The notes under the pieces are model-generated. The model saw only the letters and a list, made by a program, of their open reading frames with translations. It was not told the DNA's origin and did no database searches. Below are positions 33,772-64,000 of a stretch of 64,000 nucleotides of DNA, piece after piece (position 1 is the first letter of the stretch; each line of letters starts with the position of its first letter). Source of the stretch: Eunapius fragilis (Eukaryota; Porifera; Demospongiae; Spongillida; Spongillidae); the NCBI GenBank assembly GCA_963681505.1, contig OY811981.1, positions 5,363,727 to 5,427,726 of the forward strand. Reading direction: 5' to 3'. A program made the translations under genes and the position numbers.

Positions 33772-34730
33772 AGGTATGAAGATGTATAAGTATAAGCTCT
33801 GTGCAGAGTAGTGGGAAGTTGCTGACTACTTCTAAAGTGTTGTGAGATGACACATCTGTGTGTATGTGTGTGTTAGTGGAGGGAAGGGCACAGAAGGGCA
33901 TACCATTGATGAAGGTGTGCGCCATTCTATTCCAGTGGCCCCCTTTTCGATAATGAGGCATACATGTGTATTAATGGGGTAGCTCTGGGCCAGAGCGGTG
34001 TGTCTATGCAGATGGTTGTCCACCATTCCTCTTGCTGCCTCATTTAGTTGATTTTGGACAACTCTATTTTATTTAAACAAAATATTCCGGTGTTAATCAG
34101 TTAGAGGCTTTCTGGTGGGTGTTGGTTTACTAAATACAAACGAGGACATAAGTGTGGGTTCATCCCTCATTGGATTATCACCCTCTTGATCCTATTAGAG
34201 TCCATGATCTATTGTCCCGAAAGCCATCCCTGGGGTACAATTGTACACCCATGTGCATGTACAGCACTTTTGCTGTTGGGTGCTTATGGAACCTAGTTAC
34301 ATTTAATGATAGTGGCACTTTTTTTTGATACCCACACAACAAGCCATGTTTGTTGAGCTATCCATTAGCACCCAGGTGTAAAAGTGTACCCGATGACAGT
34401 CTGTAATACCCTTGCGCACTAGTGCCATGTATCTGGGTGTACTCGGGTACCCGGGAGCAGTTAGTCAGGGTTTGAAGTCGAAACTCTCTCCCTTTCTCCC
34501 CCCCCCCTCCCCCCCTCAATTCAGGAGTGGCATCTGAACTGAATGGGGTTGAGCAGCTTATTGCAGCAAGGAGGGAACTGTGCTTGGTGCTGAATAAGGA
34601 GATAGGCTACCTTAGGGCCACCACACAGGGATACATGGCTGAGATAGTCAGGCTCAGCGGCGTACAGAAGCAGGCATTTCAGGATGTGGAAGATCTGCTA
34701 GCCTCACACGGAGCACTGCTGAACTCTTGA
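12573..34730 (+). CDS. Large nuclear-type protein with zinc ribbons and two SKI/SNO/DAC-like domains, 16 exons
   Basis: Exons: 12573-16719, 19746-19952, 20114-20152, 20596-20808, 21664-21842, 22175-22334, 27472-27718, 28145-28359, 28797-29060, 29346-29568, 30220-30512, 32203-32434, 32519-32609, 33182-33323, 33420-33548, 34525-34730. Phases agree at all 15 joins, predicting 2,328 aa. Seen in order: Cys-pair zinc-ribbon-like region at about residues 136-200 (CNHCG, CHHCH, CPSCH, CKQCG); a very long P/S/T-rich part; 9-aa LLPDRGAPG and 8-aa STERSVGT repeats near 1190-1310; an acidic run (exon 4); an unrecognised Cys-containing segment (exons 5-6); a second zinc-ribbon block at about 1731-1802 (CPQCG, CPLCG, CTSCG, CNKCG); a SKI/DAC-like domain at about 1891-1995 (LLKKLQALGM, PICRLIVAEDLWALL); another at about 2063-2170 (VCLPEVWRKYF, LLRSAGVISL, RLMKVEDMQALL); and a helical C-terminal exon. 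Known: SKI/SNO/DAC domains occur in DACH and SKI transcriptional co-regulators. Inference: a nuclear regulator. The exon 2 donor (G|GTCAGA) is weak and intron 7 is GC-AG. No orthologue name is given. Confidence 0.8.
16719..16940. repeat. TG-rich simple repeat after the exon 1 donor
   Basis: (TG)n interspersed with TTTG and GGG begins directly at the GTAAGTGTG donor of the 4.1-kb exon 1. Reading through it adds only C/V-rich sequence, so the open frame beyond 16719 is not real protein. Confidence 0.8.
17436..17592. repeat. 30-bp minisatellite
   Basis: Five copies of a unit made of AGAGCAGACATGTGTGTATG plus TTGTAATTAT, the last two decayed into (GT)n. Confidence 0.8.
18851..18922 (+). mobile_element. 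Half-copy of the long-palindrome element
   Basis: The sequence from AAAAACATCTTCTAATGAGA to GGTGGTGTGAAGAGG matches the left arm of the palindromes at 38342, 58287 and 62297 without a right arm. It shows the family is dispersed beyond the tandem array. Confidence 0.65.
20340..20580. repeat. 24-bp minisatellite
   Basis: About ten copies of CTCACCTGATGTCTTCCCCT plus TTG(C) run up to the exon 4 acceptor of the SKI/DAC-like gene. Its pyrimidine-rich units probably supply the polypyrimidine tract. Confidence 0.85.
21030..21484. repeat. 25-bp minisatellite
   Basis: (GT)n grading into about 17 copies of GTGGAGTGCTGGTTACCTCA plus (TG)n, in intron 4. Three frames stay open across it with C-V-E-C-W-L-P repeats, an artefact. 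Confidence 0.88.
22063..22153. repeat. 30-bp tandem triplication
   Basis: Three copies of a unit containing CTGTGGGTAGCTAACCTTCC and ACCATTACCA end just before the exon 6 acceptor. Confidence 0.8.
23030..23212. mobile_element. Hairpin MITE
   Basis: CTCATAATTGAATTGTTT on the left is answered by an inverted ACAATTCAATTATGAG on the right. An inner pair (GTCAACTATTACAACC against GGTTGTAATAGTTGAC) extends the stem. The whole folds into an imperfect hairpin of about 180 bp. Family unknown. Confidence 0.6.
23904..26379 (-). mobile_element. Decayed hAT DNA transposon
   Basis: The ends CAGAGCTGCCAAGGTCT (left) and CAGACCTGCCAAGTCTCAC (right, reverse strand) are hAT-type inverted repeats. Between them the minus strand encodes transposase pieces: a BED-finger-like segment near 25950-26100 (FNPGWIKKWP, CTICQ, HIDGKKH), a central part (25443-25994 and 24686-25462, with ATDGSNDSGLQKMNP and STRWLSLE), and a C-terminal dimerisation region (24095-24361, SNASEERIFSMVRKNKT). 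Frame changes near 25450, 24683 and 24355 and a stop near the BED finger show it is dead. A clean 8-bp target duplication is not visible. A small G-rich minisatellite sits at 23915-23990. Confidence 0.85.
26361..26696 (+). other. Unrecognised 111-codon open frame
   Basis: A Ser/Ala/Thr-rich frame includes HYDSDSCKRK and a Cys-containing end (FCCGYTP). It overlaps the right end of the hAT element. It could be a captured exon or chance; I recognise no domain, and codon content does not settle it. Confidence 0.15.
27719..28144. other. GC-AG intron (intron 7)
   Basis: The upstream exon ends TTCTATAG and is followed by GCACGT, a GC donor. No GT donor keeps the phase, whereas joining at 27718|28145 restores the frame (R-Y-Q-S-V-G-K-K-K). 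A sequence near 27890-27970 resembles one at 34040-34110. Confidence 0.55.
30513..32202. other. Intron 11 of the SKI/DAC-like gene
   Basis: Besides the nested peptide frame, this holds a GC-rich repeat at about 31500-31690 in which AAGCCTGGACCAGCGTCCT occurs twice within 120 bp, a partial tandem duplication. No exon with compatible phase was seen. Confidence 0.5.
30796..30966 (+). CDS. Possible nested gene for a 56-aa secreted cationic peptide
   Basis: This lies inside intron 11 of the SKI/DAC-like gene, same strand. The peptide has a textbook signal sequence (MNRKSYVSLMCITFLLMAVA core, likely cleavage after about residue 26) followed by a short mature region with two cysteines, many Arg/Lys and a Pro-Leu repeat near the end. 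An AATAAA signal follows the stop directly (30968-30973), and an AT-rich TATA-like stretch lies near 30680-30695. Inference: a small independent gene or retrocopy making a secreted peptide of unknown role. It could also be chance; no homologue is known to me. Confidence 0.4.
   Translation: MNRKSYVSLMCITFLLMAVAVQKVFSKPKMNCHPARSVAECLRRAKRLPRPLPLKP
33697..33766. repeat. (CA)n microsatellite
   Basis: Pure (CA)35 in intron 15 of the SKI/DAC-like gene. Confidence 0.9.
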
Positions 34731-34747
34731 GGACAGCATTCACACCA

Positions 34748-34753
34748 AATAAA
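34748..34753 (+). promoter_or_regulatory. Polyadenylation signal, SKI/DAC-like gene
   Basis: AATAAA lies 18 bp after the stop codon. The same signal follows each duplicated last exon (for example 41082-41087). Confidence 0.75.
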
Positions 34754-35157
34754 AGCTTTATGTGTGGGCACATTTATATTTCACTTTCATTTCTCAGTGT
34801 CTAAATTGTTCAATGAGAACTGAAGTGAAACTGCATGCCTTATTTGCCTTTGGTGGTGTTTTTTTATATGCCTCCATTTCTCCGAAGTGAGGCTATTCTG
34901 TGCCTTTGTGTGCTATCTGGAGGTCAAAGGAGATGATGACATGCAGGAAACGCTCCTTCCATAGCTCCTCTGCGCTGTATACAGGCTGATCTGACGATAA
35001 CTAATCACTTGCTGTATCACAGCTCGTTACTATCATTAGATAACATGAGTTTTAATTTGTAACCAGCGTCTATAAAAACATATACACGTACATATGTGCA
35101 CTATTGTCTACAGCATGCAATCTTGCCTCTTACAAAAGGCGCATTAATGACGTAACG

Positions 35158-38118
35158 TTAGTAGCAGCGGTAGCTGTAATAATAGTACGAATAGTAGCAA
35201 TAAGTAGAACTGTATACGTAGCTTGAGGAGGAGGACACAGCTCCAGCAATCGCTCCAATGATGACGATGCACAGCACGATGCCACTTATGATGGCTGTGA
35301 TGTTCAGAGCAAGGGCGACACATCCCTTCTGCTGTGCTGCACCCAAGCTGCCTCGAGCTGCATCATCTTTGGCCTGGGGAGGAGAAGGAGGTGGGTCTCC
35401 ATATCATTCAGTCCAGACCGTGACCCAATGCCCAGGCCTCCCACTAAACAATCTGTGTTCGTTTACCACAAGTATAGAATACATGTTATCTATAGCATTC
35501 AGCTAGGATAAACAGTGAGCTGAATCGGACGGCAAAAGCCATTATGGAGGGAGTGTAATAAACTACTTGTACATGCACAATACATTCATTTGGGTCATGC
35601 AAGCATGCTGCTAATATGACCAAAGGTTGATATGGGTGATCCACTTGCCACTGAGACTTGATGTACTAGAAGCAATTTCCACCCCTAGTGGATAGATTGG
35701 AGCAGACTGTTGTGGTCATCTTAACATGACCTAATTTGGGGCTATACCCTAGAGTTACAATGATATTACGCTGTTTCTTTATAAACTGGTCTATTTTATC
35801 CAAAAAGAAAAAAGATGCTTAATAAGTTAACAAGCAAATTGTATGCTACAGCAATGTCACTGTCAACAAGCAAGGAATGCTTGGAATGCTTGGAATGCTT
35901 GCAAAGCAATGCATGTAATCCCCATATCCCCATGCAACCACTGGTATTCCATCAACTGTTTAACACAAATCACACCAGGGCCTACCGACATAGCCACAAC
36001 AATTGCAGGGATTGTGCACAGTAGTGAGGGCAGCCCAAAGCACATGAAGCATATGACGGTCACCACAATGGACATGGTCAGGTAGTAGTCACCAACATTA
36101 ACACGGGTAACCGTGGTAGACACTGCAGTTGGTGCCTGGACAACTACCACATTTGTTGAGGTCTATTACAAATGGAGGAAAGGATATTAGGCCCCGGGTA
36201 GGCCCCGGGGAAAAAAGTGTGAGAAAGAACTAATTAATGTATTTTTTGAACCTACCTGCTGTGAGGCACCTGGTTGGAAATACTGTGGTGGTGGTGGCTG
36301 TTGGCCTGGATATTGCTTGGAGACGTCAGGCCCACTGTAAGGAGGTGGGTATGATTGAGGTGGGTATCCTTGAGGTGGATACTCTTGAGGTGGGTATCCT
36401 TGAGGTGGGTATCCTTGAGGTGGGTACTCTTGAGGTGGGTATCCTTGAGGTGGGTATCCTTGAGGTGGGTATCCTTGATGTGGGTATCCTTGAGGTGGGT
36501 ATCCTTGAGGTGGGACTGGTAGATTGTTAAGTCAACAAATTGCCAATGCTCAGAACCATTAGGACTATTTAATACCATCTTTAGTGCATGCATGACTTAT
36601 AAAATTGCAGATGGTCTCATTGTCTACCCAGACCACTTTGAATTTGGCCTGGTGAGGGGCCTAAAGTGAGTGTGGGTTACGGAGAATGGGTGAGTATCAA
36701 TGGCACATCTGGAAATCTTTTTTGCGGTCAAAGACCTGCAATGATGTTACCTTGATTAGAGGTGCATATTTCTATAGACTGCATGTTATAAAACAGGTTC
36801 AAGCAAAATAGGACAAAGGCACAAATAATACAAGTGTGGTCAACAGTGATTGTTTCCAGAGAAGCTGTCCTATTATGGTGTGATAGCTTTAGTACATGTT
36901 GCCTCAAGGGCCTGCAGTGTATGTGTAGAAGTTGTTAACACACCACAATTCAATAAGGGGAAGGAGCTGAATATGGATGAACTTAGTCATACTGACTCAC
37001 ACCTTGCAGTGTCACTATGTATGTGCCAACTTTACGGCTGTGTACAAAACTGTTATGGGACACCTGCCACACTTAAATAATGTCAAAAGTCACAAGTTAG
37101 TTTTGCCCTTTGTTTTGACCTTACTGTGTACTGACATACCCATTTTGGCTGCGCATAGTGCTAAATATAAATGACTTATGTAGTATGATAAACTATACCT
37201 GTGGATCCCTCGGTGTTTTACTTTTGGCCGCCATCACTACAAACTGAAAGTTTGACATTAAAATTTACCTACGGCAGTCCCTAATCCTATTTCACATGTC
37301 ATTGCACTGTCACGTGATTGCTTCGCAACGCAATTTGTCTCCAGAAATACATATACTCAATCATGTCTTCCTCCATTCAATATTCTGGGGCGAAGTTTTA
37401 ACCTGTTATAGATGAATTTCCCTCCTACCGGAGTCTTACATAATAATGAGACAGGAGTTGTGGTGAGGAAATCACCCGTCGCTTTATAAGATCTTTCTAA
37501 CGCACCACTGGCGGATTCAGGGGGGAGGGTTTAGGGGTTGCAACCCCCCCCCCCCCCCCCCCCCCCCCCCCTTTCATATAAGGTACCTCCCCTTCTTCCG
37601 CTAAGCAGCCCCCCCCCCCCCCCCTCCCCCCGCCGCGCTTTTCGTATCGTGCCTGAAGCGTACAGCACCCCCCCCCCCCCCCCGCATCGGGCCGCAAACG
37701 GGCAGCACCCCTCCCCCGCCCCCCCCCCCCCACCCCACTTTTCGTAATGGGCCTGAAGCGGACAGCATCCCCCACCCCCCACTTTTCGTATCGAAGCGGA
37801 CAGCACCCCTCCCCCCCCCCCCCCCCCCCCCCTCCCGCTTTTCGTATCGCGGGTCTAAACACACCCCCCCCCCCCCGTTTGGAAAATCCTGTAGCGCTCG
37901 CTGTTAGAAAGAACATGACCACATGTAACACTCTGGAGTAAACAACTAAACAGCTGCTGCGCTCTAAATTTTCCCTCCTCTCCGCTCCCGCGTGCTTTCT
38001 TTTCTCTTCAGTTATTCACACTCTCCCTCCGCCGCCATCACAACCCTGCTCCGTACCCACTCACCCGTACACGTTCAGAGTTACCCATACAGTAAGCATA
38101 CATACCTTGCTGGTCCAT
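35158..38118 (-). CDS. Dispanin 1: proline-rich CD225-domain transmembrane protein, four exons
   Basis: Exons on the minus strand: 38118-38106 (only MDQQ plus one base), 36515-36256, 36162-35986, 35373-35158. All are GT-AG with agreeing phases; 221 aa. Residues 5-65 are about twelve PPQGY units, then PPPYSG and QQPPPPQYFQP. The CD225 region starts at about D116 (DYYLTMSIVVTVICFMCFG), with a first membrane segment to about 149, a loop AKDDAARGSLGAAQQKGC, a second segment at about 169-193 (ALALNITAIISGIVL) and a Tyr/Ser/Cys-rich tail. CD225/dispanin proteins include the antiviral IFITMs and PRRT/synDIG-type proteins. Antiviral activity here is not shown. Stop codons of this gene and the SKI/DAC-like gene are 427 bp apart, tail to tail. 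An ATTAAA-like signal lies near 35050. Confidence 0.88.
36270..36515 (-). repeat. Coding minisatellite (PPQGY)n of dispanin 1
   Basis: A 15-bp unit read on the minus strand gives PPQGY with PPQEY, PHQGY and PPQSY variants. Copy number differs among paralogues: about 12 in units 1 and 3, 11 in unit 2, and about 5 usable in unit 4. This indicates slippage after duplication. Confidence 0.85.
37506..37891. mobile_element. hAT-like MITE with an internal C-rich repeat
   Basis: The left end CACTGGCGGATTCAGGGGG and right end reading CAGGATTTTCCAAA on the reverse strand match the CAGGGGCGGATCCAGG-type hAT termini seen at 45156. Inside, a unit with CTTTTCGTATCG and CTGAAGCGGACAGCACCCC repeats about five times between poly-C tracts. 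Unit 3 (near 52200) has the uninterrupted site, and flanks TAACGCAC and TAGCGCTC are a plausible worn 8-bp duplication. Confidence 0.6.
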
Positions 38119-38341
38119 CGTATTACGTGCAGCTGACGAACGGCAACGATTTCACTCTTCGGCGTCAATGACGTCGTGAGACCTAAATTCCCTAATGACG
38201 TATGAATCGATTACTTAGTGATATCATTTTTTTCTAATGCACATGCGATATGCATGTACGATAAAATTCAAAGCAGACAGCCTCGTTCAATTTCTTGATT
38301 ATACCTTGATCTGATCTGAGCGAGGTTTGAGGTGTAATTAT

Positions 38342-38622
38342 ACAAGTAACTAAAAGCATTCTCTACGAGAAAGTTAGTGGTTTATAGGATTTGAAGGCAA
38401 TTGGTGGTGTAAAAAGCAAGGAAACAAGGTCTTATCAGAAGGGAAAATGTAATAGTCCTATATATTCACAAACAACACATGCCCTAGAAATGTGCCTAAT
38501 ATAGGACTATTACATTTTCCCTTCCGATAAGACCTTGTTTCCTTGCTTTTTACACGACCAATTGCATTCAAATCCTATATACACCACAAACTTTCTCGTA
38601 AAGAATGTTTTTAGTTACTTGT
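38342..38622. mobile_element. Long-palindrome element, copy P1
   Basis: Near-perfect inverted arms of about 125 bp surround a loop of about 30 bp. The ends are ACAAGTAAC and GTTACTTGT. Arms contain TTCTC(T/G)ACGAGAAAGTT and CCTTGTTTCCTTGC. The module to its right (38640-39230) accompanies the palindrome in every copy. The site is empty in unit 3. Confidence 0.8.
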
Positions 38623-38639
38623 TTCCTTGATTTTTGTTC

Positions 38640-39230
38640 ATACCCAAATCACTGAATATTATGTATCGCTGTAGTACGCCCGTGCCGATTATAAAATTCG
38701 TCTCGAACTTGAAGGTATTTTGCACGTCGTTTCGCTCGTTTCTTTTCCTGACGTGAAGGCTTTTTGAGAAAAATAACTTCACTAACAAAAGAGGTTACAC
38801 CAAACGACGATTGAAGCACCAAAGCGTTTACCACTTTATGTCTTACAAGTTATCTAATTATGCGTCTTACATAGATTCGATTGTTTACCAAAATATAACA
38901 TCGACTATTTTATATAAAAGCGTCTCTTCCAGCCTATTCTAAAACTATTGGTGCAATTTTCATTGTTTAAATGTGTTCCTATCCCGATTTATGCGTTGCC
39001 AAGAAGAAGGCGGAGACCATCATCCGAGACTGGGTACGAGGACGGGCAGTACCAACCGCGCGGTTCTGTGACATAAAACAAAGACGAAACTGCTCATTTT
39101 AAACTTCTAGTTCGATTGCTATAACAAGCTAAACGATCCAATCTTGTTAGTAGAGACGGGTCGCGTATTTTTAACACCGCATCCACGAGAAACGAGGGGA
39201 AATTAAGGCTCTAGATATCATTGTTTGGCT
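38640..39230 (-). mobile_element. Module of the palindrome element with K/R-rich frame
   Basis: The minus strand encodes KKPSRQEKKRAKRRAKYLQ within the frame 38649-38834. Copies at 46190, 58860, 59050, 60440 and 62770 give MPSRQ(Q/E)K(K/R)RAKRR-type peptides, some with stops. Conservation of the peptide start across diverged copies suggests it was once translated by the parent element. Function unknown; the basic, nucleic-acid-binding character is inferred. Confidence 0.5.
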
Positions 39231-39865
39231 TTGAGTGGAGATTTCATTACATTTACCATTATGAGGCATATTGCATTTTTTTTTTTTTGTATCTCTAACA
39301 GACATACCATCGGTCATTGCATAGACTTTGAGTGGCTCTAGCGTTATTGCGTAAGAGGTGCAGATTTTTTAAAACATATTCCTTCTAGAGCATTTCAATA
39401 AATGCGTAAAAACTGTATGAAGCTTTGTGAAAATGGTTTTAAATTATGGCTCTAAGTTAAATACATGTAACCAACTCTCACGGTCGGGGGTAATGAAATG
39501 TGAAAACGGCATTACCGCGAGTGAATTTTTGCGTGAGCGGACTTCAAGAATCTTTCTTCCTGTCTTACTTAATAACATACCATGACTATATCCAGACAGG
39601 TACAGACTGGATGTTTGAGTAGAACTTACCTGCCTTCGCTGGCTCTTTGGATGAGCGGACCACGCCCCCTGCCTACCGCGAGCGAAAATGTCTTGTAACT
39701 TACTACTGAAAACGAGTGCAATAGAAAGTTTGGCTTGTTTGAAAAAGGAATTTATGTACCCTCCTATAGTTGCATAACCCATATTAAATGCAATTTTGAT
39801 TCAGTGGAAACGTGACCCTGAAAAAAGTGTACCTGAGGGCAATTACCACATCAAAAACTATATAA
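39230..39865. repeat. Dispersed repeat with shared open frame
   Basis: Similar sequence occurs at 46700-47370 (same orientation) and at 61030-61800 (inverted). A frame starting MG(Y/C)(A/T)TIGG(Y/C)INSFFK is shared by all three but differs after about 70 codons. It is probably part of an unclassified mobile element. Confidence 0.5.
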
Positions 39866-39989
39866 TTATGGAACGGCTACCGGCAGTATGATCAGTGCAG
39901 CTTAGTGTTACTGCAGTTACAAACATTTGTATAACCATGCACTCGCAGTTAATACAAGATTGCATTAATTATAACCTCGAACCTCAGCA

Positions 39990-40480
39990 CCCGGAGGGCC
40001 GGGGGCCGAGGTGTGGGGGCTTTCCAGGCAACACAGAAACCTGTATGGATACGCTCCTGTAGCTGAACGTTTTTGTGGACATGATCAACAGAATGGTTTC
40101 TCGTTTTGACCCCTTTGTATCCTGTCATTGTAACCCCAATGCTATCGGAAGCATGAACAAGAGAAGAAAAGAGACTGAATGTGAAACCAGAATATTAGTT
40201 GACCATGGCACATTCTTGCCATTAATCTTCTCAACATTGGGTGGCTGCATGGGTCACAACTACGGTGTACAAAAGGATAATAGCATCACTGATCTCAACA
40301 CTCTTTATAGTGAAACTCTTTTCTGGGTCAGGTGTAGGCTAAGTTTTTCCTTCCTCCAATCAGCTATTGTGTGCATTAGAGGTTTGAGGTCCTCTATGGT
40401 TCATGATCAACCTGTTCGCCATTCAGTTGGGTTAGTCATTGTGCTGCCTGAGCAGTGGGTAAAATTCTGCCGTAGTTTAT
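39990..40480 (+). mobile_element. Retroelement polymerase fossil, unit 1
   Basis: The translation resembles the C-terminal domain of retroelement polymerases common in sponges and cnidarians: DPFVSCHCNPN, then VDHGTFLPLIFSTLGG, then CRLSFSFLQSAIVCIRG. It is broken and duplicated along with units 2 and 3, so it predates the tandem amplification. Confidence 0.5.
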
Positions 40481-40868
40481 TTATTTTATACACATCTATA
40501 GCACTAGCTAGCTAGGTTTACTATCATCACAAATGTGATACCTACTATCACATACTATTGTCCCGAAAGCCATCCCAGGGGTTCAATTGTACACCCATGT
40601 GCATGTACAGCACTTTTGTTGTTGGGTGTTTATGGAACCTATTTACATTTAATGATCTGATACTGGCACGTAGGGTGGGCCTAAATAAATCTTTTTCTTT
40701 GAAACCTCAATACCAAGCCATGTTTGTTGAGCCATCCATTAGCACCCAGGTGTAAAAGTGTACCCTTGTGCACTAGTGCCATGTTTGTATGAGTACCTGG
40801 GAGCAGTTAATTACAGGTTGAAGTCAAAACTCTCTCCCACACCCCCCCGCCCTCTCCCCCCAATTCAG

Positions 40869-41074
40869 GAGTGGCATCTGAACTGAATGGGGTTGAGCAG
40901 CTTATTGCAGCAAGGAGAGAACTGTGCTTGGTGCTGAATAAGGAGATAGGCTACCTTAGGGCCACCACACAGGGATACATGGCTGAGATAGTCAGGCTGA
41001 GTGGCGTACAGAAGCAGGCATTTCAGGACGTGCAAGATCTGCTAGCCTCACACGGAGCACTGCTGAACTCTTGA
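40869..41074 (+). other. Duplicated last exon of the SKI/DAC-like gene, copy 2
   Basis: Intact 206-nt copy with CAATTCAG acceptor, the same phase, an open frame to the same stop and an AATAAA eight bases after it. It differs from copy 1 by one residue (QDVQDLL for QDVEDLL). It has no upstream exons of its own, so it is either an orphan or an alternative terminal exon. Confidence 0.8.
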
Positions 41075-41458
41075 GGACAGCAATAAAAGCTTTATGTGTG
41101 GGCACATTTATATTTCACTTTCATTTCTCAGTGTCTCAATGAGAACCGAAGTGAAACTGCATGCCTTCTTTTGCCTTTGTTGGTGTTTTTTGTATGCCTC
41201 CATTTCTCCGAAGTGAGGCTATTCTGTGCCTTTGTGTGCTATCTGGAGGTCAAAGGAGATGATGACATGCAGGAAGCGCTCCTTCCGTAGCTCCTCTGCG
41301 CTGTATACAGGCTGATCTGACGATAACTAATCACTCAGCACTAGCACGGATTAAATAACACTAGTTTTAATTTGTAACCAGGTTATACAAAAACATGTAA
41401 TCACGTGCATACAAGCGTGCGTGTACTACTACTGTCTAACAGCATGCAATCTTGCCTC

Positions 41459-44400
41459 TTAAAAGAGGCGAAATAATGACGTAACGTTAGTAGCAGCGAT
41501 AGCTGTAATAATAGGTCGAATAGTAGCATTGTAGCCTGAGGAGGAGGACACAGCTCCGGCAACCATTCCAATGATGACGATGTACAGCACGATGCCGCTT
41601 ATGATGGCTGTGATGTTCAGAGCAAGGGCAACACATCCCTTCTGCTGTGCTGCTCCCAAGCTGCCTCGAGCCGCATCATCTTTGGCCTGGGGAGGAGAAG
41701 GAGGTGGGTCTCCATTTCATTCAGTCCAGACCGTGTTCCAATGCTACGACCACCCAGGCCTCCCATTAAACAATCTGTATTCGTATACCACAAGTATAGA
41801 ATACATGTTATCTATAATAGCATTCAGCTAGGATAAACAGTGAGCTGAATCGGATGCAAAAGCCATTATGGGAGGGAGTGTAGTAAACTACTTGTACATG
41901 CACAATACATTCATTTGGGTCATGCAAGCATGCTGCTAATATGACCAAAGGTTGATATGGGTGTTCTACTAGCCACTGAGACATGAAGCAATTTCCACCC
42001 CTAGAGGATAGATTGGAGCAGACTGTTGTGGTCATCTTAACATGACCTAATTTGGGGCTATACCCTAGAGTTACAATGATATTCTGTTAATAATACGCTG
42101 TTACTTAATAAACTGGTCTATTTTGTCCAAAAAGAAAAAAGATGCTTAATACGTTAACAAGCAAATTGTATGCTACAGCAATGTCACTGTCAAGGAATGC
42201 TTGGAATGCTTGGAATGCTTGCAAAGCAATGCATGAAATCCCCATGCAAGCCAGTGGTATTCCATCAACTATTTAACACAAATCACACCAGGGCCTACCG
42301 ACATAGCCACAACAATTGCAGGGATTGTGCACAGTAGTGAGGGCAGCCCAAAGCACATGAAGCATATGACGGTCACCACAATGGACATGGTCAGGTAGTA
42401 GTCACCAACATTAACACGGGTAACCGTGGTAGACACTGCAGTTGGTGCCTGGACAACTACCACATTTTTTGAGGTCTGGTACAAATGGAGGAAAGGATAG
42501 TAGGCCCCGGGGAAAAAGTGTGAGAAAGTACAAATTAATGTATTTTGAACCTACCTGCTGTGAGGCACCTGGTTGGAAATATTGTGGTGGTGGTGGATGT
42601 TGGCCTGGATATTGCTTGGAGACGTCAGGCCCACTGTAAGGAGGTGGGTATGATTGAGGTGGGTATCCTTGAGGTGGAAACTCTTGAGGTGGGTATCCTT
42701 GAGGTGGGTATCCTTGAGGTGGGTACTCTTGAGGTGGGTATCCTTGAGGTGGGTATCCTTGAGGTGGGTATCCTTGAGATGGGTATCCTTGAGGTGGGAC
42801 TGGTAGATTATTATGTCAACAAATTGCCAATGCTCAGAACCGTTAGGACTATTTAATACCATCTTTAGTGCATGCATGACCGATAAAATTTCAGATGGTC
42901 TCATTGTCTACCCAGGCCACTTTGAATTCGGCCTGGTGAGGGGCCTAAAGTGAATGTGGGTTACGAAGAATGGGTGAGTATCAATAGCACATCTGGAAAT
43001 CTTTTTGGTGGTCAAAGGCCTGCAATGATGTTACCTTGATTAGAGGTGCATATTTCTATAGGCTGCATGTTATATAACAGGTTCAAGCATAATAGGACAA
43101 AGGCACAAATAACACAAGTGTGGTCAACAGTGATTGTTTCCAGAGGAGCTGTCCTATTATGGTATGATAGCTTTAGTACATGTTGCCTCCAGGGCCTGCA
43201 GTGTATGTGTAGAAGTTGTTAACACACAAACTTCAATAAGGGGAGAGGAGCTGAATATGGATGAACTTAGTCATACTGACTCACACCTTGCAGTGTCACT
43301 ATGTATGTGCCAATTTTATGGCTGTATTCAAAAATGTTATGGGACACCTGCCCCACTTAAATAATGTCAAAAGTCACAAGTTAGTTTTGCCCTTTGTTTT
43401 GACCTTACGTGTACTGACATACCCATTTTGGCTTTGGCTATGTGCAAGTCTGCACGTAGTGCAAAATATTAATGACTTATGTAGTATGATAAATTGTATC
43501 TGTGGATCCATCGGTGTTTTACTTATGGCCGCCATCACTACAAACTGAAAGTTGGACATTAAAATTTACCTACGGCAGTCCCTAATCCTATGTCATCGCA
43601 ATGTCACGTGATTGCTTTGCAACGCAATTTGTCTCCAGAATTACATCAATACTCAATCATATGTCTTCCTCCATTCTCTGCTTTTTTCTTTTTCTCAGAT
43701 ATATTCTCTTTTTCCCTCTTTCCGCCATTACTCATTTGAAAACACATAAAGCTCCGCCCTCGATGGATTAAATCAATAATAATAATAACAGTGCATGCAT
43801 GCAGTGTACTAAATTTAACAAAATAGATAGAAATTACGTCACGAAAGCGGATAGGTTAAATTAAAGCGGGGGCAGATTGAAAGTACACAGAGCCAGAGCG
43901 TAGCTAACACCCTCATTGGCTAACGGCACCCCCCCTTTTTGACCCGCAGAGTGAGCCTTACCTACCTGCCTGCCCCCCCCCCCCCCCCCCCCCACTACAA
44001 CTGTAGAGCGCGCGGTTTTGCAGTCGTGCATTACTATAGTCACAATTTGCAGCCGAAAGGGATTTTTCGTTTTTAGCTGCCGTTAAAACAATGTGATGCA
44101 CTATTTTGAAGTACTACGCCGCTTGAATTGGTGGGTTGGCCTGCCAAAATTATGCAGTCCATCTTTATGCCACGTCTTCTCCTTTAAACGCATGCAGAAC
44201 CACCATGGTCAACGCATTTCGTATCGAAGCGGACAGCAACCCCCCCCCCCCCCCCCCTCCTGCGCTTTTCGTATCGGGCCTGAAGCGGACAGCACCCCTT
44301 CCCCCCCTACTTTTCGTATCGAAGCGGACAGCACCCCTCCCCCCCTCCGGCTTTTCGTATCGCGGGTCTAACCCCCCCTCCCCCTTTTGGAAAATCCTGT

Positions 44401-44634
44401 ATCCGCCCCTGCGCACGCTGTTAGAAAGAACATGACCGCATGTAACACTCTGGAGTAAACGGCTAAACAGATGCTGCGCTCTAAATTTTCCCTCCTCTCC
44501 GCTCCCGCGTGCTTTCTTTTCTCTTCAGTTATTCACACTCTCCCTCCGCCGCCATCACAACCTGTTCCGTACCCACTCACCCGTACACGTTCAGAGTTAC
44601 CCATACAGTAAGCATACATACCTTGCTGGTCCAT
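41459..44634 (-). CDS. Dispanin 2: CD225-domain protein with shifted tail, four exons
   Basis: Exons on the minus strand: 44634-44622, 42799-42555, 42475-42299, 41686-41459; 220 aa. The N-terminus has one PPQGY unit fewer than dispanin 1. The CD225 core is kept (DYYLTMSIVVTVICFMCFG, GAAQQKGCVALALNITAIISG). A short out-of-frame deletion after SSSSGY swaps the Tyr/Cys-rich tail for NATIRPIITAIAATNVTSLF, so residues after about 196 are unlike the paralogues. The loop residue pair is MV rather than AI in IIGMVAG. Splice sites are intact. It could be functional with a new tail or in early decay. Confidence 0.82.
43975..44411. mobile_element. Poly-C and hAT-like MITE remnant, unit 2
   Basis: This holds poly-C runs plus three copies of the CTTTTCGTATCG repeat seen in unit 1, ending in CCTGTATCCGCCCCTG, a hAT-type right terminus. 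The left end is not found at the unit 1 position, so this copy is rearranged. Confidence 0.45.
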
Positions 44635-45151: not shown

Positions 45152-45155
45152 TTTC

Positions 45156-53044: not shown

Positions 53045-53177
53045 TTATAATTATGAAACGGCTACCGGCAGTATGATCAGTTCAGCTTAGTGTTACTGCG
53101 GTAACAAGCATGTGTATAACCATGCACTCGCAGTTAATACAAACATTGTCACAAATAAGTGTTTAGTACATAAAATA

Positions 53178-54968: not shown

Positions 54969-55009
54969 TACATAAAATATATAAGTTAAGTTACTTTGCA
55001 TTTATTAAT

Positions 55010-55290
55010 CTCGAACCTCAGCACGGGGGGCCAGGGTGTGGGGGTTTCCAGGCAACCCGGAAACCTGTGTGGATACGCTCCTGTAGCTGAAAGATTTTGG
55101 GGACATGATCAACAGAATGGTTTCTCGGATGTTGGTTTTTTTGACCCATTTGTTTCATGTCATCGTAAACCCAATGCTACCGGAAGCATCAACAAGAGAA
55201 GAAAAGAGCTATTGTGTGCATTAGAGGCTTGAGGTCTTCAATGCTTCATGATCAACCTGTTTGCCATTCAGTTGGGTTAGTCATTGTGCT
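55010..55290 (+). mobile_element. Retroelement polymerase fossil, unit 3
   Basis: Translation shows VAERFWGHDQQNGFSDVGFF and DPFVSCHRKPN, typical of the same polymerase C-terminal domain as in units 1 and 2, shortened relative to them. Broken. Confidence 0.5.
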
Positions 55291-55732
55291 GGCCTCTGCA
55301 GTGGGTAAAATTTTGCCTTAGTTTATTTATTTAATACACCCTTATAGCACTAGCTAGGTTTAACTATTATCATAATGTGATAACTATTTCACAAACTATT
55401 GTCCCGAATGCCATCCCAGGGGTTCAATTGTACACCCATGTGCATGTACAGCACTTTTGCTGTTGGGTGTTTATGGAACCTATAGTTACATTTAATGATA
55501 CTGGCACATAGGGTGGGCCTAAAAAAGTAAGGCTTAAATCTTTTTTTTTTTTTTTTTTTTTGATACCCACATAACAAGCCATGCTTGTTGAGGTATCCAT
55601 GTACCCAATGACAGTCTGTAATACAATTGCACACTAGTGCCATGTTTGTATGAGTACCTGGGTGTACTTGGGTACCTGGGAGCAGTTAATCATGCAGGGT
55701 GTGAAGTCCACCCCCCTCCCCCCTCGATCCAG

Positions 55733-55938
55733 GAGTTGCATCTGAACTGAATGGGGTTGAGCAGCTTATTGCAGCAAAAAGGGAACTGTGCTTGGTGCTG
55801 AATAAGGAGATAGGCTACCTTAGGGCCACCACACAGGGATACATGGCTGAGATAGTCACGCTCAGCGGCGTACAGAAGCAGGCATTTCAGGACGTGGAAG
55901 ATCTGCTAGCCTCACACGGAGCACTGCTGAACTCTTGA
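55733..55938 (+). other. Duplicated last exon of the SKI/DAC-like gene, copy 4
   Basis: Intact 206-nt frame with acceptor (GATCCAG) and AATAAA downstream. Substitutions are conservative (AAKRE for AARRE, IVTLSG for IVRLSG), which hints at little decay. Confidence 0.8.
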
Positions 55939-56264
55939 GAACAGCATTCACACCAAATAAAAGCTTTATGTGTGGGCACATTTATATTTCACTTTCATTT
56001 CTCAGTGTCTAAATTGTTCAATGAGAACTGAAGTGAAACTGCATGCCTTTTTTTGTGGTATACAGACGTCATTGATCTGACAATAACTAATCATAGCCAT
56101 GCTATATCACAGCTTCTTAGTACGCTATGCTATCATTAAATAACACGAGTTTAATTTTTAACCAGCTTGTATAAAAACCTATACATGTACATACAAGCGT
56201 GTGTGCACTATTGTCTGCAGTATGCAATCTTGCCTCTTACAAGAGGCGAATTAATGACATAATG

Positions 56265-57556
56265 TTAGAAACAGTAGTAGCTGTAATAATAGGTCGAATA
56301 GTAGCAATAACTAGAACTATAGACTGAGGACACAACTCCGGCAATTGCTCCAATGATAACGATGTACAGCACAATGCCGCTTATGATGGCTGTGATGTTC
56401 AGAGCAAGGGCAATACGTCCCTTCTGCTGTGCTGCTCCCAAGCTGCCTCGAGCTGCTTCTTCTTTGGCCTTGGGAGGAGAAGGAGGTGGGTCTCCATTTC
56501 ATCTTAAAAATTCAGTCCAGACCATCCCAATGCTACGACCACCAAGGCCCCCCATTAAACAATCTGTATTCGTATACCACAAGTATAGAATCCAGAAATA
56601 CATGTGTTATCTATAGCATGCAGCTAGGATAAACAGTGAGCTGAATTGGGTTATGGCAAAAGCCACTATGGGAGGGAGTGTAATCAAACTACTTGCACGT
56701 GCACAATCAATTCACTTGGGTCATGCAAGCATGCTGCTAATATGACCAAAGGTTGATATGGGTGCTCCACTCGCCACTGAGACTTGATGTACTATAAGCA
56801 ATTTCCACCCCTAGAGGAAAGATTGGAGCAGACTGTTGCAGTCATCTTAACATGACCTAATTAGGGCTAGTTACAATGACATTCTGTTAATAATATGCTC
56901 TTTCTTAATAAACTGGTCTATTTCATCCAATAAAAAGATGCTTTGATTAAAATAAGTTAACAAGCAAATTGTATGCTACAGCAATGTAATTTAAATGACA
57001 CTGTCAACAACTAAGAAATGTTTTACTCCTCATCAAAGCTTGCAAGGCAATGCATGTAATCCCCATGCAACCACTGGTATTCCATCAACTATTCACACAA
57101 ATCATACCAGGGGCCTACCGACATAGCCACAACAATTGCAGGGATTGTGCACAGTAGTGACGGCAGCCCAATGCACATGAAACACATGACGGTCACCACA
57201 ATGGACATGGTCAGGTAGTAGTCACCAACAATAACATGGGTAACCGTGGTAGACACTGCAGTTGGTGCCTGGTCATGCTCAACTACCACATTTGCTGAGG
57301 TCTGGTAAAAATGGAGGAAGGGATAGTAGGCCCCGGATAGGCCCTGGGAAAAAGAACAAATTAATGTATTTTTTTGAACCTACCTGCTGTGAGGCATCTG
57401 GTTGGAAATATTGTGGTGGTGGTGGCTGTTGGCCTGGATATTGCTTGCAGACGTCAGGCCCACTGTAAGGAGGTGGGTATGATTGAGGTGGGTATCCTTG
57501 AGGTGGATACTCTTGAGGTGGGTATCCTTGAGATGGGTATCCTTGAGGTGCATTTC
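56265..57556 (-). CDS. Dispanin 4, partial (first exon not in window)
   Basis: Exons on the minus strand: about 57556-57384, 57301-57119, 56468-56265. The paralogues' exon 2 acceptor CTACCAG is CTACTGG here, losing the AG. The next AG (CTAAAG|GAAATG) sits in the same phase and would remove a few codons, so a usable acceptor remains. The repeat region is short (about five units) and QAP is preceded by extra EHD. The core is kept (DYYLTMSIVVTVMCFMCIG, GAAQQKGRIALALNITAIISG), but the conserved loop Cys is Arg. The tail is YSSSYCYYSTYYYSYYCF. The 13-nt MDQQ exon would lie beyond 64000 if present. Confidence 0.7.
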
Positions 57557-58286
57557 CTTTAGGTGGGACCAGTAGATTGTTAGGTCAACAAATTGCCAAT
57601 GCTCAGATCCATTAGGACTATTTAATACCATTTTTAGGGCATGCATGACCAATAAAATTGCAGATGGTCTCATTGCCTACTCAGGCCACTTTGAATTCGG
57701 CCTGGTGAAGGGCCTAAAGTGAGTGTGGGTTACGGAGAATGGGTGAGTATCAATAGCACATCTGGAAATCTTTTTGGTGGTCAAAGGCCTGCAATGATGT
57801 TACCTTGATTAGAGGTGCATATTTCTATAGGCTGCATGTTATATAACAGGTTCAAGCAAAATAGGACAAAGGCACAAATAACACAAGTGTGGTCAACAGT
57901 GATTGTTTCCAGAGGAGCCGTCCTATTATGGTATGATAGCTTTAGTACATGTTGCCTCCATGGCCTGCAGTGTATGTGTAGAAGTTGTTAACACACCAAA
58001 TTCAATAAGGGGAAAGAAGCTGAATATGGTGAACTTATAACAGTTCACACTGACTCACACCTTGCAGTGTCACTATGTATGTGCCAAATTTTATGGCTGT
58101 ATACAAAACTGTTATGGGAAGACCTCATTTGCATCACCTGCCACACTTAAATTATGTCAAAAGTCACAAGTTAGTTTTGCCCTTTGCTTTGACCTTACTG
58201 TGTACTGACATATCCATTTTGGCTGGGTTTGGCTATGTGCAAGTCTGCACATGGCGCAAAATATTAATGGTTATGTAGTATGATTT

Positions 58287-58607
58287 ACAAGTAAAGAAAA
58301 ACATTCTCTAACAAGAAAATTGGTGGGATATAGGAATTGGAGGCAAAGGTGATGTAAAAAGGAAGGGATCAAGATTTTGAGAGAAGAAAAATGAGACAAA
58401 AATCCTATATTTAGCACGCGTAAATGTGACAGTTTTATTACTGTCTGATCGATATTACTGCCTGATCGATATTGTTTTTGATCTAAATTGTTATAACAAA
58501 GATTCTTGTCTCATTTTTATTTTCCCAAAACCTTGTTCCCTTCCTTTTTGCCTCCAATTCCTATACACCACCAACTTTCTCGTTAGAGAATGTTTTTCTT
58601 TACTTGT
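58287..58607. mobile_element. Long-palindrome element, copy PA
   Basis: Arms of about 130 bp (ACAAGTAAAGAAAAACATTC to its inverted match) with a longer central loop containing repeated CTG(A/C)CTGATCGATATT. It marks the left end of the 3.9-kb block inserted into unit 4. Confidence 0.78.
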
Positions 58608-58619
58608 TTCTAGTAATTT

Positions 58620-59990
58620 TAAATTTATTGTCGAGATACGAACTTCAAAGAGACAAAAGTATCAGCGGTGTGAGCGTCTAAGCTGCAGCGCTATGAACAG
58701 TATTCCAACGAGATACGAGCTACAGACGCCCGCTTTTTTTCAGGATCTGCTCTGTAGCTGTCACAAGCAGATGCCCGCTTCTTTTTCAGGATCGGCATTG
58801 CACCGGGAGGACCCTAACTCGTCGTCTCGAATTTGGAGGTGTTCCTCTCGTCATTTAGCTCTCCTCTTTTGTTGAGGTGAAGGCATTTTGACAAAAACGA
58901 CTTCGCTAGCCCAAAAGTATAAGTATTGAACTAATTGAAGCAGACGCCCGCTTTTGTTCAGGATCAGCATTGTACCGAACGCGGGAGGACTCTAACTCGT
59001 CTGATTTTGGAGGTATTCATCTCGTCGTTTAGCTCTCCTCTTTTGTTGACGTGAAGGCATTTTGACAAAAACAACTTCGCTAGCGAAAAGTGGTGACAAA
59101 ACTGCGATCAAACGAAGCTGGATCAATTTTGCCACCACCCTCTCCGAGCGAGCTATCAATATAAGGGATCTGATTAATACCCCAATCTCGACTCGAGCTA
59201 TAATCAATGCCAGCTGTGACATGTAATGATTGGTTGTTTTATCTTCAACTTCCTTTTCTTGGCTATCAAAGGCAGATTTTGAAGTTTTATTACTGCCTGA
59301 TCGATATTGTTTTTGATCTAAATAATCATAACGAAGATCTAAGCGAATACCTGCTGCAACTATTACAGGTGCGGTTAATGGACAAACGACCGAGGAACGT
59401 ATTAACAGCATCATCGATAGCATTATCTGGCCTAGCACTATGCGTTCTATAGATACGGGCGACTCATTGTGCCAGACAGACCCCGGAACTACTCGCACAG
59501 CACTTGGGGCGCTTAAAGTCAGCAATTGAGCAAGGCGCTTTCTATATCGCGGGCGACCAATCTGTTTATAACGCTGCACAATTCTAATTATACGTGAATG
59601 TTGCCATGGGAACGCTTTAATATAGCACCCATATTACGTAATGATTATGTATATCAGTTTCATCATATATCTGATATCTGAAGATGTCCTTCTAGGAGCG
59701 ATTGGTATAACTTGCGCTTTTTAAAAACATTCCTATCCCGAGTTATACTCTTCCGAGAAGAAGTTAAGACGACATGCAACGTCGACAACGACGAAGAATT
59801 GGTTTGGGAACGAGAAAATAAAAACACGAGCTTTTTTGTTCTCAGAAAATAGAATGAAGGCTGAAAATGACTGTCTTTGCCTTCTGGTTCGATAGGAACA
59901 AAGAGCTAAACTATCCGTTGTTTGGTACGCTAGTTATACGCGGGTCGCGTTTTTATCACCGCATCCACGTGAAACGCGGGGAAATTTGGG
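58620..59990 (-). mobile_element. Palindrome-element module, duplicated
   Basis: Two successive versions of the K/R-rich coding segment (near 58790-58900 and 58940-59080) lie here; the second reads MPSRQQKRRAKRRDEYLQ on the minus strand. The rest matches 60400-60950 and 62700-63290 at lower identity. A minus-strand frame 58992-59579 (195 codons) spans it but has no known domain. Confidence 0.5.
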
Positions 59991-60078
59991 GGCACTTGTG
60001 GATACTGATAATTCCCTCCTATCGTTTATTTGACTGGAAAAATATATAATCAGAAAGCTCGCCCATTTGTAAAGTGTA

Positions 60079-60360
60079 ACAAGTGATAAAAACATTCTCT
60101 ATGCGAGAAGGTTGGTGGTATATAGGAATCAAAGGTGATGGTGGTATAAAAAGCAAGGGAACAAGGTTTCTGATTGAAAAGGAAAAATGAAATAGACCTG
60201 TATTAGCAACATGTTGTCATAAATAAATGTGCTTGCTAATATAGGTCTATTTCATTTTTCCTTTTCAATCAGAAACCTTGTCCCCTTGCTTTTTACACCA
60301 CCCACCTTTGATTCCTATACACCACCAACCTTCTCGCATAAAGAATGTTTTTATCACTTG
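60079..60360. mobile_element. Long-palindrome element, copy PB
   Basis: Ends AACAAGTGATAAAAACATTC and its inverted match. Arms of about 125 bp surround a loop of about 30 bp (CAACATGTTGTCATAAATAA). Followed by another module (60370-60950) in which the K/R peptide stops early. Confidence 0.8.
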
Positions 60361-61029
60361 ATTCCTAAATTTTTTCGGTGGTTTTAGTATTGAATTTAGT
60401 TCTTGAAACTTAACGCCGTTTACCTCTCCTCTTTTGTTGACGCGAAGGCATTTTGAAGAAAACAACTTCGCTAGCCAAAAGTGGTGAATAAAACTGCGAT
60501 CAAATGAAATCCCACTTGTTTATAGCTGCTAAAATTCTAAATAAGCGTGAATGTCGCCATGGGAACGGTTAAATATAGCACTCCATATTACGTAATGATT
60601 ACGTATATCAGTTTTATGCTTTATTCATATATCTGATACCTGATGATGTCCTTCCAGGAGATTCTAAAGCGATTGGTATAACTTGCGCTCTTTAAAACCA
60701 TTCATATACCCAGTTGTACTCGGCCGAGAAGACGACGACGACGACGGAGAAAAATTGGCGTGGGGACGAGGAAAACACGAGCTTTTTTGTTCTCTTAAAG
60801 CAAACAGTGTGAAGACTGGAACAAAACATTAAAATGACCGTCTTTGCCTTCTGGTTCGATAGCAACAAAGAGCTAAACTATCCTTTTCTAGGTACGCGAG
60901 TTATACGCGAGTCGCGTTTTTAATGACATTCATGATATTACTGGATTCCTATATGGAACCTACTCGCGTAGGTTCCGATTTCTACTTTCTTTTGGAATGG
61001 TGCTCTATAAATAACTCCCTGTTATATGA

Positions 61030-61800
61030 AAATATCGAACGGGTGCATAGTTTTTGATGTTGTAAATGCCCTCGGGTACACTTTTTTCAGGGTCATGTTT
61101 CCAGTATTACTGAATAAAAATTACATTTAATATGGGTTGTACAACTATAGGAGGGTACATAAATTCCTTTTTCAAACAAGCCAAAGCTTCTATTGCACTC
61201 GTTTTCAGCAGCAAGTTACAAGACCTTTTCGCTCGCGGTAGGCAGGGGGCGTGGTCCGCTCATCCAAAGTGCCAGCGAAGGCAGGTTTTGCAAGTTCCAC
61301 CAAAACATCCAGTCTGTACCTGTCTGGATAGAGTCATGGTATGTTATTTAGTAAGAGAGGAAGAAAGATTCTTGAAGTCCGCCCACGCAAAAATTACTCG
61401 CGGTAATGCCGTTTTCACATTTCATTACCTTGCACTGCATATCACTCCCGACCGGGAGAGTTGATTACATGTATTTAACTTAGAGCCATAATTTAAAACC
61501 ACTTTCACAAAGTTTCATACAGTTTTTACGCATTTAAATATGCTCTAGAAGGAATGTTATTTTAAAAATCTGTACCTCTTACGCGATAACTCTAGAACCA
61601 CTCAACTATGCTATGACGTTTCGAGCCAATGGTATGTCTGTTTGAGATACAAAAAAAAAAAGCAATATGCCTCATAATGGTACATGTAGTGAAATCTCCA
61701 CTCAACACCAAGCAATTCTATCTAGAGGGAATTAATCGTTTTTCGGTTTGCCCCAAAATAGACTAAATTTCCCCGCGTTTCTCATGGATGCGGTGTTAAA
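61030..61800. repeat. Inverted copy of the dispersed repeat
   Basis: Reverse-complement counterpart of 39230-39865 and 46700-47370. Its frame (61132-61464, +) shares the MG-x-TTIGGYINSFFKQAK start. The opposite orientation shows it moved independently of the tandem duplication. Confidence 0.6.
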
Positions 61801-61830
61801 ATGATTTCACGACCCGGGTCAATTCCTCTA

Positions 61831-62170
61831 GAGCTCTTTCATCGTGTGACTTAATAGCATTCATCTTCTAATTAGTCCGCCATATTGGTGCTCGTTTACA
61901 AAGGAGAAGTATGGGCTTATGCTTAGTTTTGGTATGTAACATTACTTCAGAGTGTCGTTTAAATATACATTATTGTGGTCTAACACATGACTAACATTTG
62001 TAAAAATATGATTTTTACTTGTGCCCTCGGAGCGTGAGTTATACGTATCAAAAGTACCAAAACCGAGCATAAGCCCATATATTTCCATAGTAAACCGAGC
62101 ACCAATATGGCGGACAATAAAGCAATTAACGCAATTAAAGCCCACGCGTCATGTGACCCTGAAAGAGCTC
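61831..62170. mobile_element. Fold-back MITE
   Basis: GAGCTCTTTCA at 61831 is matched by an inverted TGAAAGAGCTC ending at 62170. A better-conserved inner pair of about 60 bp (CCGCCATATTGGTGCTCG, GGGCTTATGCT) extends the arms past 110 bp. Flanking TA on both sides fits Tc1/mariner-type target duplication. Confidence 0.65.
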
Positions 62171-62296
62171 TATTATAGGAACTACTAACGTAGTTCCTGA
62201 TACCTAGGGACCTTCGGTGTTTGCAATTGGCCGCCAGCACATCACTACAAACCGAAAGTTCGACATTAAAATTTACCTACGGCAGTCCCTAATCCT

Positions 62297-62562
62297 ACAA
62301 GTAAAGAAAAACATTCTCTGACGAGAAAGTTGGTGGGATATAGGAATTGGAGGGGAACAAGGTTTTGAGTAAAGGGTAATGAGACAAAAATCCTATATTT
62401 AGCACATGTAAATGTAACAGAACCAAAAGAAGTGCTAAATATAGGATTTTTGTCTCATTACCCTTTACTCAAAACCTTGTTCCCCTCCTTTTTACACCAC
62501 CTTTGCCTCCAATTCCTATATCCCACCAACTTTCTCGTCAGAGAATGTTTTTCTTTACTTGT
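62297..62562. mobile_element. Long-palindrome element, copy PC
   Basis: Arms of about 115-130 bp, the cleanest copy, with near-exact arms and a 25-bp loop. It starts right after the unit-derived GTCCCTAATCCT and is followed by a module (62570-63290) encoding MPLRHQKRRAKQRAEYLQ on the minus strand, with a poly-C run at 62627-62663. Confidence 0.82.
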
Positions 62563-62624
62563 TTTCTCCATTTTTTAATTATCATTTTTCATTTTATTGT
62601 CGATTATTAATACTGGCAAGTGCC

Positions 62625-62667
<43 letters not shown>

Positions 62668-63290
62668 CTTCAATTACCGTCACGAGGCGGAACGCGAGAG
62701 AATTCTAACTCCTCGTCTCGACTTTGAAGGTATTCCGCTCGTTGTTTAGCTCTCCTCTTTTGATGACGCAAAGGCATTTTGAAGAAAACAACTTCGCTAG
62801 CCAAAACTGGTGAACAAAACTGCTCACCAAAACTGTTTATAACGCTGCTAAATACACGTGAATATGTCGCCATGGGAGCGGTTAAATATAGCACTCCATA
62901 TTACGTAATGATTACGTATATCAGTTTTATGCTTTATTCATATATCTGATACCTGATGATGTCCTTCCAGGAGATTCTAAAGCGATTGGTATAACTTGCG
63001 CTCTTTAAAACCATTCCTATACCGAGTTGTACTCGGGCGAGAAGAATTAGACGACTACGACGACGACGACGGAGAAGAATTGGTCTGGGGACGAGTACAA
63101 ACACGAGCTTTTTTTGTTCTCTTAAAGCAAACAATTTGAAGACTGGAACAAAACATTAAAATGACGATCTTTGCCTTCTGGATCGATAGGAACAAAGAGC
63201 TACACTATCCGTTTCTTGTTACGTGAGTTATACGCGGGTAGCGTTTTTTAATGATTTCACGACCCGGGTCAATTCCCTCGAAACTCTTAA

Positions 63291-64000
63291 ATAGAATAAA
63301 AAATAGAATTTAAAAAAAAACTTTAACATAGAATATCGTGAAAACCGCGTTTCTTTGAGACGTCCAGTGCACAGATATTGTATACAGCATCACACAGATT
63401 CACACTACAAATAGAATCCCAAACACAAATGTTAAGAGCGAAATTAAAGCTGCAGCGGAACAAAGGCAGTGCGATTACGGGGATACATAGATGGTAAAAA
63501 TTTGTTGCTTTTATCCTATGCAATAGAATAAAATAGAGGTGGACGCTAGTATAATTTATGCTTTTAAAGTGTAAGTGGCTTAACTGAAATGAGATTATAG
63601 AAATAGCTGTTCAGCATTGGGTAATAATCACACAGTATGTAGAATAACACGCTCAGCTATTATCCCTAGAAACCTGCAAATAGAAAATAGAATGGGCTAG
63701 GGATATAGGAACTACTACTACTACCGTAGTTCCTGATTTCACGTCATTTGACTGTCACGCGATTGCTTCGTTAACAACGCAATTTGTCTCCAGAATACAT
63801 CGGTACTCAATCGTATGTTCTTCCATTCGCAGCTTTTTTCATTTCTGCAGATATTTTCTCCATTTTCCTCTTTCCGCCATCACTCGTTTGAATTCAATAA
63901 TTATTATTATGTTTGCAATTAAAGATCTCATTGTACATGCAGGGTACTAAATTAAAAAGAAAAAAGTTAGAAATTAAGTCACGAAAGCGGATAGGTTAAA
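63291..64000. other. AT-rich stretch and return of unit 4 sequence
   Basis: 63291-63700 is AT-rich with repeated AAATAGAATA and no gene seen. TAGGAACTAC...GTAGTTCCTGA at 63708-63735 ends the insertion, and sequence from about 63740 matches unit 2 at 43600-43860. Confidence 0.5.

Follow-up and report, generated by a model that had tools for sequence, protein, structure and literature searches.

When a tandem duplication breaks inside one gene and carries a neighbouring gene along, which of the resulting copies remain under selection? This question is raised by a stretch of 64,000 nucleotides of Eunapius fragilis (contig OY811981.1, C11:5363727-5427726; hereafter the window), in which the terminal exon of a plus-strand gene, the upstream gene, and a minus-strand gene assigned to the dispanins from its predicted protein are repeated together four times. 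Because clear signs of selection are seen in unit 1 alone, the array is most likely an ordinary, young partial-gene tandem duplication, in which both genes have their working copy in unit 1 and units 2-4 are mostly spare. The analysis was extended 30 kb rightward of the window (coordinates above 64000 continue the window numbering), and 218.9 Mb of genome in 24 contigs were searched. Splice sites of both genes were taken from sequence and conservation, not from RNA; for the upstream gene the last two exons were examined, and the ordinal 15 for its penultimate exon is that of an earlier note on this DNA.

A Tandem Array of Four Units With a Sharp Left Edge

Self-BLAST resolved four head-to-tail units, whose starts fell exactly at the positions that the earlier note had given (Table 1). 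When the four units were aligned together they all started at the same base, so that one sharp left edge was common to all of them. Left of 34209 no match to the other units was found, and units 2-4 were each preceded by the end of the previous unit. The self-comparison with pairwise identities, which the earlier note had suggested as a check, showed ~84-96% identity over gap-free bases along the colinear blocks; units 1 and 2 differed by only ~4-5% of gap-free bases over long blocks. A genome search with the initial 642 bases of the unit gave four places, all in the window, among the best 40 of 169 candidates.

Every one of the four units has a terminal exon (+) from the upstream gene together with three coding exons of a dispanin (-), in convergent orientation. 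The earlier description of every unit as a repeat of both genes therefore stands as to presence (4/4) and fails as to integrity, as a frameshift disrupts the terminal exon in unit 3 and the unit 4 dispanin has lost an acceptor. Similarly, the range of 34209 to 64000 proposed for the array is right at its start and too short at its end. Unit 4 overruns the window end by ~5.6 kb, with stretches at 62.2-65.2 kb and a last matched stretch at 69446-69629 (also C11:5433172-5433342), and ends at ~69630. Because unit 4 continues in this way, the array length is ~35 kb.

Given the positions of the penultimate and terminal exons, the breakpoint at 34209 lies inside the last intron of the upstream gene, 316 bases before the terminal exon, in agreement with the boundary claimed earlier. 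The repeat boundary is thus inside a gene, and the copies are without the rest of the upstream gene, as in a partial-gene duplication.

Clear Coding Constraint in Unit 1

The conclusion that exons are more conserved than introns, as drawn from raw identity, was dropped because the introns contain low-complexity runs; the comparison was based on private changes in gap-free columns. A private change was counted in a column where the other three units agree, with no gap within four columns (main filter); the comparison was made in five settings, namely three gap filters on one alignment and two other alignments. In units 1-4, private changes numbered 38, 21, 38 and 43 of 1238 in noncoding sequence, 0, 3, 2 and 2 of 198 in the terminal exon, and 3, 7, 14 and 23 of 530 in the dispanin exons.

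At the main filter, clear coding constraint was observed in unit 1 alone. Its coding sequence carried 3/728 private changes vs 38/1238 in noncoding sequence (P = 2e-5), and this deficit was significant in all five settings (P from 8e-6 to 2e-5). The corresponding comparison showed no significant difference at the main filter for units 2, 3 and 4 (P = 0.71, 0.32 and 1.0, respectively). When the dispanin exons of units 2-4 were pooled, they changed at the same rate as noncoding sequence in 5/5 settings (P from 0.53 to 1.0). The private dispanin changes of units 1-4, given as synonymous to nonsynonymous, were 2:1, 1:5, 4:6 and 6:15.

Table 1. Positions of the units and of the exons of both genes in window numbering.
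Feature	Coordinates	Strand	Remarks
Penultimate exon of upstream gene	33420..33548	+	Open frame; acceptor ...CCCCAG; donor GTGAGT at 33549; phase 1
Last intron of upstream gene	33549..34524	+	Holds the left duplication breakpoint 34209
Unit 1	34209..40554	+	6346 bp; unit with clear coding constraint
Terminal exon, unit 1	34525..34730	+	With stop; poly(A) signal AATAAA at 34748-34753
Dispanin, unit 1	35158..36515	-	Exons 36256-36515, 35986-36162, 35158-35373; CD225 28.2 bits, cut-off 27.1
Unit 2	40555..48082	+	7528 bp; sister of unit 1
Terminal exon copy, unit 2	40869..41074	+	Open; poly(A) signal at 41082-41087
Dispanin copy, unit 2	41487..42799	-	CD225 core intact; tail beyond the core in another frame
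Unit 3	48083..55395	+	7313 bp
Terminal exon copy, unit 3	48433..48642	+	4-nt insertion; frame shifted
Dispanin copy, unit 3	49062..50258	-	Exons 2-4 open
Unit 4	55396..64000, on to ~69630	+	Contains inserted dispersed repeats
Terminal exon copy, unit 4	55733..55938	+	Open; poly(A) signal at 55956-55961
Dispanin copy, unit 4	56265..57568	-	Exon-2 acceptor AG reads GG

The Terminal Exon and Its Copies

With the breakpoint inside the last intron and extra copies in units 2-4, the amplification does leave spare terminal exons, as the earlier note had supposed. The phase-1 donor of the penultimate exon is compatible with the start of all four copies. An acceptor CAG, a stop triplet and a polyadenylation (poly(A)) signal AATAAA were found in 4/4 copies and the frame is kept in 3/4; the unit 3 copy, with its 4-nt insertion, would terminate early. 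Since each copy has an acceptor and a poly(A) signal, the parent gene could in principle make use of any of them. A whole-genome search with the terminal-exon protein gave four matches, all in the array (4/4 candidates scored). Between the copies, the synonymous distance was 0.06-0.13 vs a nonsynonymous distance of 0.007-0.020, with the inserted bases of unit 3 left out.

The earlier note had called the upstream gene SKI/DAC-like. With the SKI/SNO/DAC profile (PF02437), two exons of this gene reached 16.0 and 13.0 bits, under the cut-off of 24.5. Searched against solved structures, one of these two exons returned two MCM9 chains only (E-values 0.48 and 0.86) and no SKI/DAC relative. The label is therefore kept as a weak assignment and a lead. 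An exon at ~28.1-28.4 kb, a candidate part of the upstream gene, matched Zn_Ribbon_1 at 25.3 bits, just above the cut-off of 25.0, and its other Pfam matches were below theirs. At 12555-16625 (+) the window holds a very long open frame (1357 codons there), rich in Ser, Pro and Thr and with Cys-rich motifs near its start; nothing in it scored over a Pfam cut-off, and it is perhaps a large exon of the upstream gene.

The Dispanin Copies

The assignment of the minus-strand gene to the dispanins is based on the CD225 domain (PF04505) in its translation. Six copies were tested with exons 3 and 4 only, namely those of units 1-4, a copy beyond the window at ~82.5-83.4 kb in continued numbering and a copy on contig 2, and all six passed the cut-off of 27.1 with 28.2-35.9 bits. 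An earlier query, which included the repeat exon and a wrong splice, had reached 21.0 bits, under the same cut-off. In all six copies the first hydrophobic stretch is encoded in exon 3 and the second in exon 4, with a GT donor and an AG acceptor predicted between them; an intron between two hydrophobic stretches is described for eukaryotic dispanins in PMC3282796. The gene thus resembles the CD225/dispanin (IFITM) genes of that source in its domain, its two hydrophobic stretches with the intron between, and its copies nearby on the same strand. It differs from them, as far as that source describes them, in that an exon with XYPPX repeats precedes the CD225 part and that units 2-4 are without clear constraint. 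For the start exon, inspection of the alignment by eye gave several candidates with an ATG and a donor, none of them kept in all copies. In unit 4, homology to the other units is broken by dispersed repeats from 58287 on, upstream of the dispanin.

When the dispanin exons of unit 1 were used as the query, 119 genome matches with E <= 0.01 were obtained (150/158 candidates scored), counted by exon over both domain halves and not by gene. The Pfam family model gave 12 genome matches, 3 of them over the cut-off, and control genomes gave 0/14. On contig C11, a close copy at C11:5446894 and eight further first-helix exons at 5.51-5.72 Mb lie on the same strand, so that same-strand dispanin exons are spread over ~0.3 Mb right of the array; a weak dispanin match at 5.77 Mb has the opposite orientation. 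Because more same-strand dispanins follow on the right, the array is the left tip of an existing dispanin group. The earlier claim that the amplification creates a dispanin cluster is accordingly not upheld: the group already exists to the right, and in units 2-4 the pooled dispanin exons evolve at the rate of noncoding sequence.

A related dispanin was found on contig 2, where homology ends before reaching the terminal exon. Further dispanin-like matches occur genome-wide, e.g., on contigs 4, 5, 7, 11 and 18, many of them clustered. In the dispanin at C11:5446256-5447076 (~82.5-83.4 kb), the first-helix exon is identical to that of unit 1 in its 59 encoded residues, and exons 3 and 4 together are ~7% different from unit 1 at synonymous sites. 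The intron between these two exons showed no similarity to that of unit 1 beyond chance; exon-only gene conversion would explain this contrast. Exon 2 of the same copy could not be placed in frame.

History of the Array

Among the noncoding columns, 24 sites group units 1+2 vs 3+4, 12 sites group 1+4 vs 2+3, 2 sites group 1+3 vs 2+4, and 12 sites have more than two states. A dispersed repeat at 39209-39861 in the tail of unit 1 and 46645-47378 in that of unit 2 is common to both. From this site pattern and the common repeat, the history of the units is ((1,2),(3,4)), perhaps with some exchange. Other dispersed repeats, different from that of units 1 and 2, are inserted in unit 4. An element of ~280 bases at 60079-60374 also matches its own reverse complement and has at least 36 other copies at 91-95% identity among the best 40 of 4831 candidates; units 1 and 2 contain forms that have diverged further, with 72-76% similarity. 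No Rfam family reached its gathering score within the window.

By eye, no long repeat was found in common between the left flank and the right end of the array; for this reason the ends joined in the initial duplication probably had little homology, and subsequent growth would have proceeded via the units themselves. A duplication driven by a transposon was also considered and rejected, since the dispersed repeats found lie inside units or end ~100 bases left of the left edge, with none at the edge (searches among the best 40 of 937, 40 of 169 and 40 of 4831 candidates). Part of the unit 1 tail is spanned by a single 71% match on contig 2, and a repeat near the right edge of the array is possible.

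The units, the breakpoint, the splice phase, the copy number found, the pattern of divergence and the constraint in unit 1 are observed; how the ends were joined, what is expressed and what role the spares have is inferred. On the preferred reading, a genomic segment of 6-7 kb underwent a young segmental tandem duplication. One of its breakpoints happened to fall within the upstream (+) gene, in the last intron, and the second lay in DNA upstream of the convergent dispanin (-). Such an event leaves the upstream gene whole, because its penultimate exon still joins the terminal exon of unit 1, and each added unit supplies a terminal exon without a gene body and one extra dispanin. Growth to four units probably occurred by unequal crossing-over between units. 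Unit 1 would remain the working copy of both genes, and units 2-4 would be mostly spares drifting near neutrality, two of them damaged (the frameshift in unit 3 and the acceptor in unit 4).

Alternative Explanations

Several observations weigh against units 2-4 being mere spares. One of them is that unit 3 coding sequence as a whole was also low in private changes at the loosest filter (P = 0.037, 1/5 settings); the others bear on two readings that are compatible with the same duplication history. The spare terminal exons could serve as alternative last exons, with splicing from the penultimate exon to the copy in unit 1, 2 or 4; this would give a near-identical C-terminus, differing 3' ends and much longer primary transcripts running antisense across the dispanins. 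The intact signals of the copies and their low nonsynonymous relative to synonymous distance argue for it. In addition, the pooled spare terminal exons carried 7/594 private changes vs 102/3714 in noncoding sequence (P = 0.023); over the five settings P was 0.023, 0.041, 0.11, 0.023 and 0.013, the deficit not being significant under the strictest gap filter. Their private changes were 6 synonymous to 4 nonsynonymous, where ~72% nonsynonymous or stop changes are expected from the local noncoding spectrum (P = 0.035), and with shared changes added 4/12 were nonsynonymous (P = 0.006). However, the unit 3 exon is frameshifted, the deficit is clear by itself in unit 1 only, and the unit 1 exon would normally be used first because every copy has its own poly(A) signal. 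The deficit in the spare exons is taken as a hint only, since it could arise from the small numbers, from rates that vary along the unit or from gene conversion. Use as alternative last exons is accordingly considered improbable. The stronger form of the idea, in which the last exons are interchangeable under selection and transcripts that differ in length extend antisense over more or fewer dispanins, thereby coupling the two loci, is more doubtful still.

It is likewise unlikely, if to a lesser degree, that the extra dispanins were selected for dosage or diversity within the dispanin expansion, with the terminal exon as a passenger. The 119 exon-level matches and the eight further same-strand exons on C11 are in keeping with such an expansion; moreover, dispanin exons 2-4 are open in 4/4 units and the CD225 core is over its cut-off in 4/4. 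Against these points stand the private dispanin changes of units 2-4, which are near the noncoding rate and lean to nonsynonymous kinds where unit 1 does not, the lost exon-2 acceptor of unit 4, and the Pfam family model, which yields just 12 matches in the genome. As to the assembly, divergence of ~4-5% between alleles is possible in a very heterozygous animal, and the difference between units 1 and 2 is of this size, so haplotypes or repeats could have been set in tandem by error. Such an artefact is nevertheless highly improbable: a diploid cannot have four units all allelic to one, the junctions are at the identical base every time, and the units differ by ~4-16% in gap-free bases as well as by indels and inserted repeats. 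The closest pairs are 1+2 and 3+4, whereas two stacked haplotypes of two units each would give 1+3 and 2+4. Partial-gene tandem duplication with one working unit thus remains the preferred reading.

Comparison With Known Partial-Gene Duplications

According to PMC3449122, partial duplicates make up 63% of the detectable spontaneous gene duplications in Caenorhabditis elegans mutation-accumulation lines and 76% of the duplications segregating in Drosophila melanogaster lines; the picture is different in Saccharomyces cerevisiae, where complete duplicates account for 82% of the pairs (PMC3449122). In Drosophila yakuba, 1004 of 1116 tandem duplications are reported to have captured 1306 genes or gene fragments, including 66 whole-gene duplications (PMC5460883). 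Since partial duplicates are this frequent in C. elegans and Drosophila, the copying of a segment with one gene cut and the adjacent gene included is an expected type of event in animals, and the earlier view that such copying is unusual does not agree with what these two sources report.

The array resembles the partial-gene tandem duplications of both sources (PMC3449122, PMC5460883) in that the breakpoint lies within a gene and part of that gene is copied along with neighbouring DNA. Unlike the cases in the portions of those sources used here, this locus has four copies of the segment, and what was copied from the cut gene is its 3' terminal exon, which brings along an acceptor and a poly(A) signal. 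What is mildly special about the locus is that the part cut off is a whole terminal exon, that its phase is the right one, and that it occurs four times. By itself, the array is an ordinary outcome of tandem duplication. It offers a clean natural case in which a last exon has been duplicated with the parent gene left intact, with one constrained unit beside three spares, two of them damaged, and it could be used to ask whether free-standing terminal exons become alternative last exons before they decay.

Other Features of the Window

Possible remains of a hAT-type DNA transposon were found at 24098-26090 (-) as three open stretches. Two of these had no Pfam match, and the third gave a weak match to the hAT dimerisation domain (18.6 bits, under the cut-off of 21.4). 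At 3000-8000 (+), open stretches are interrupted by long microsatellites and tandem repeats; they resemble what we take to be a WD-repeat gene of the WIPI/WDR45 type.

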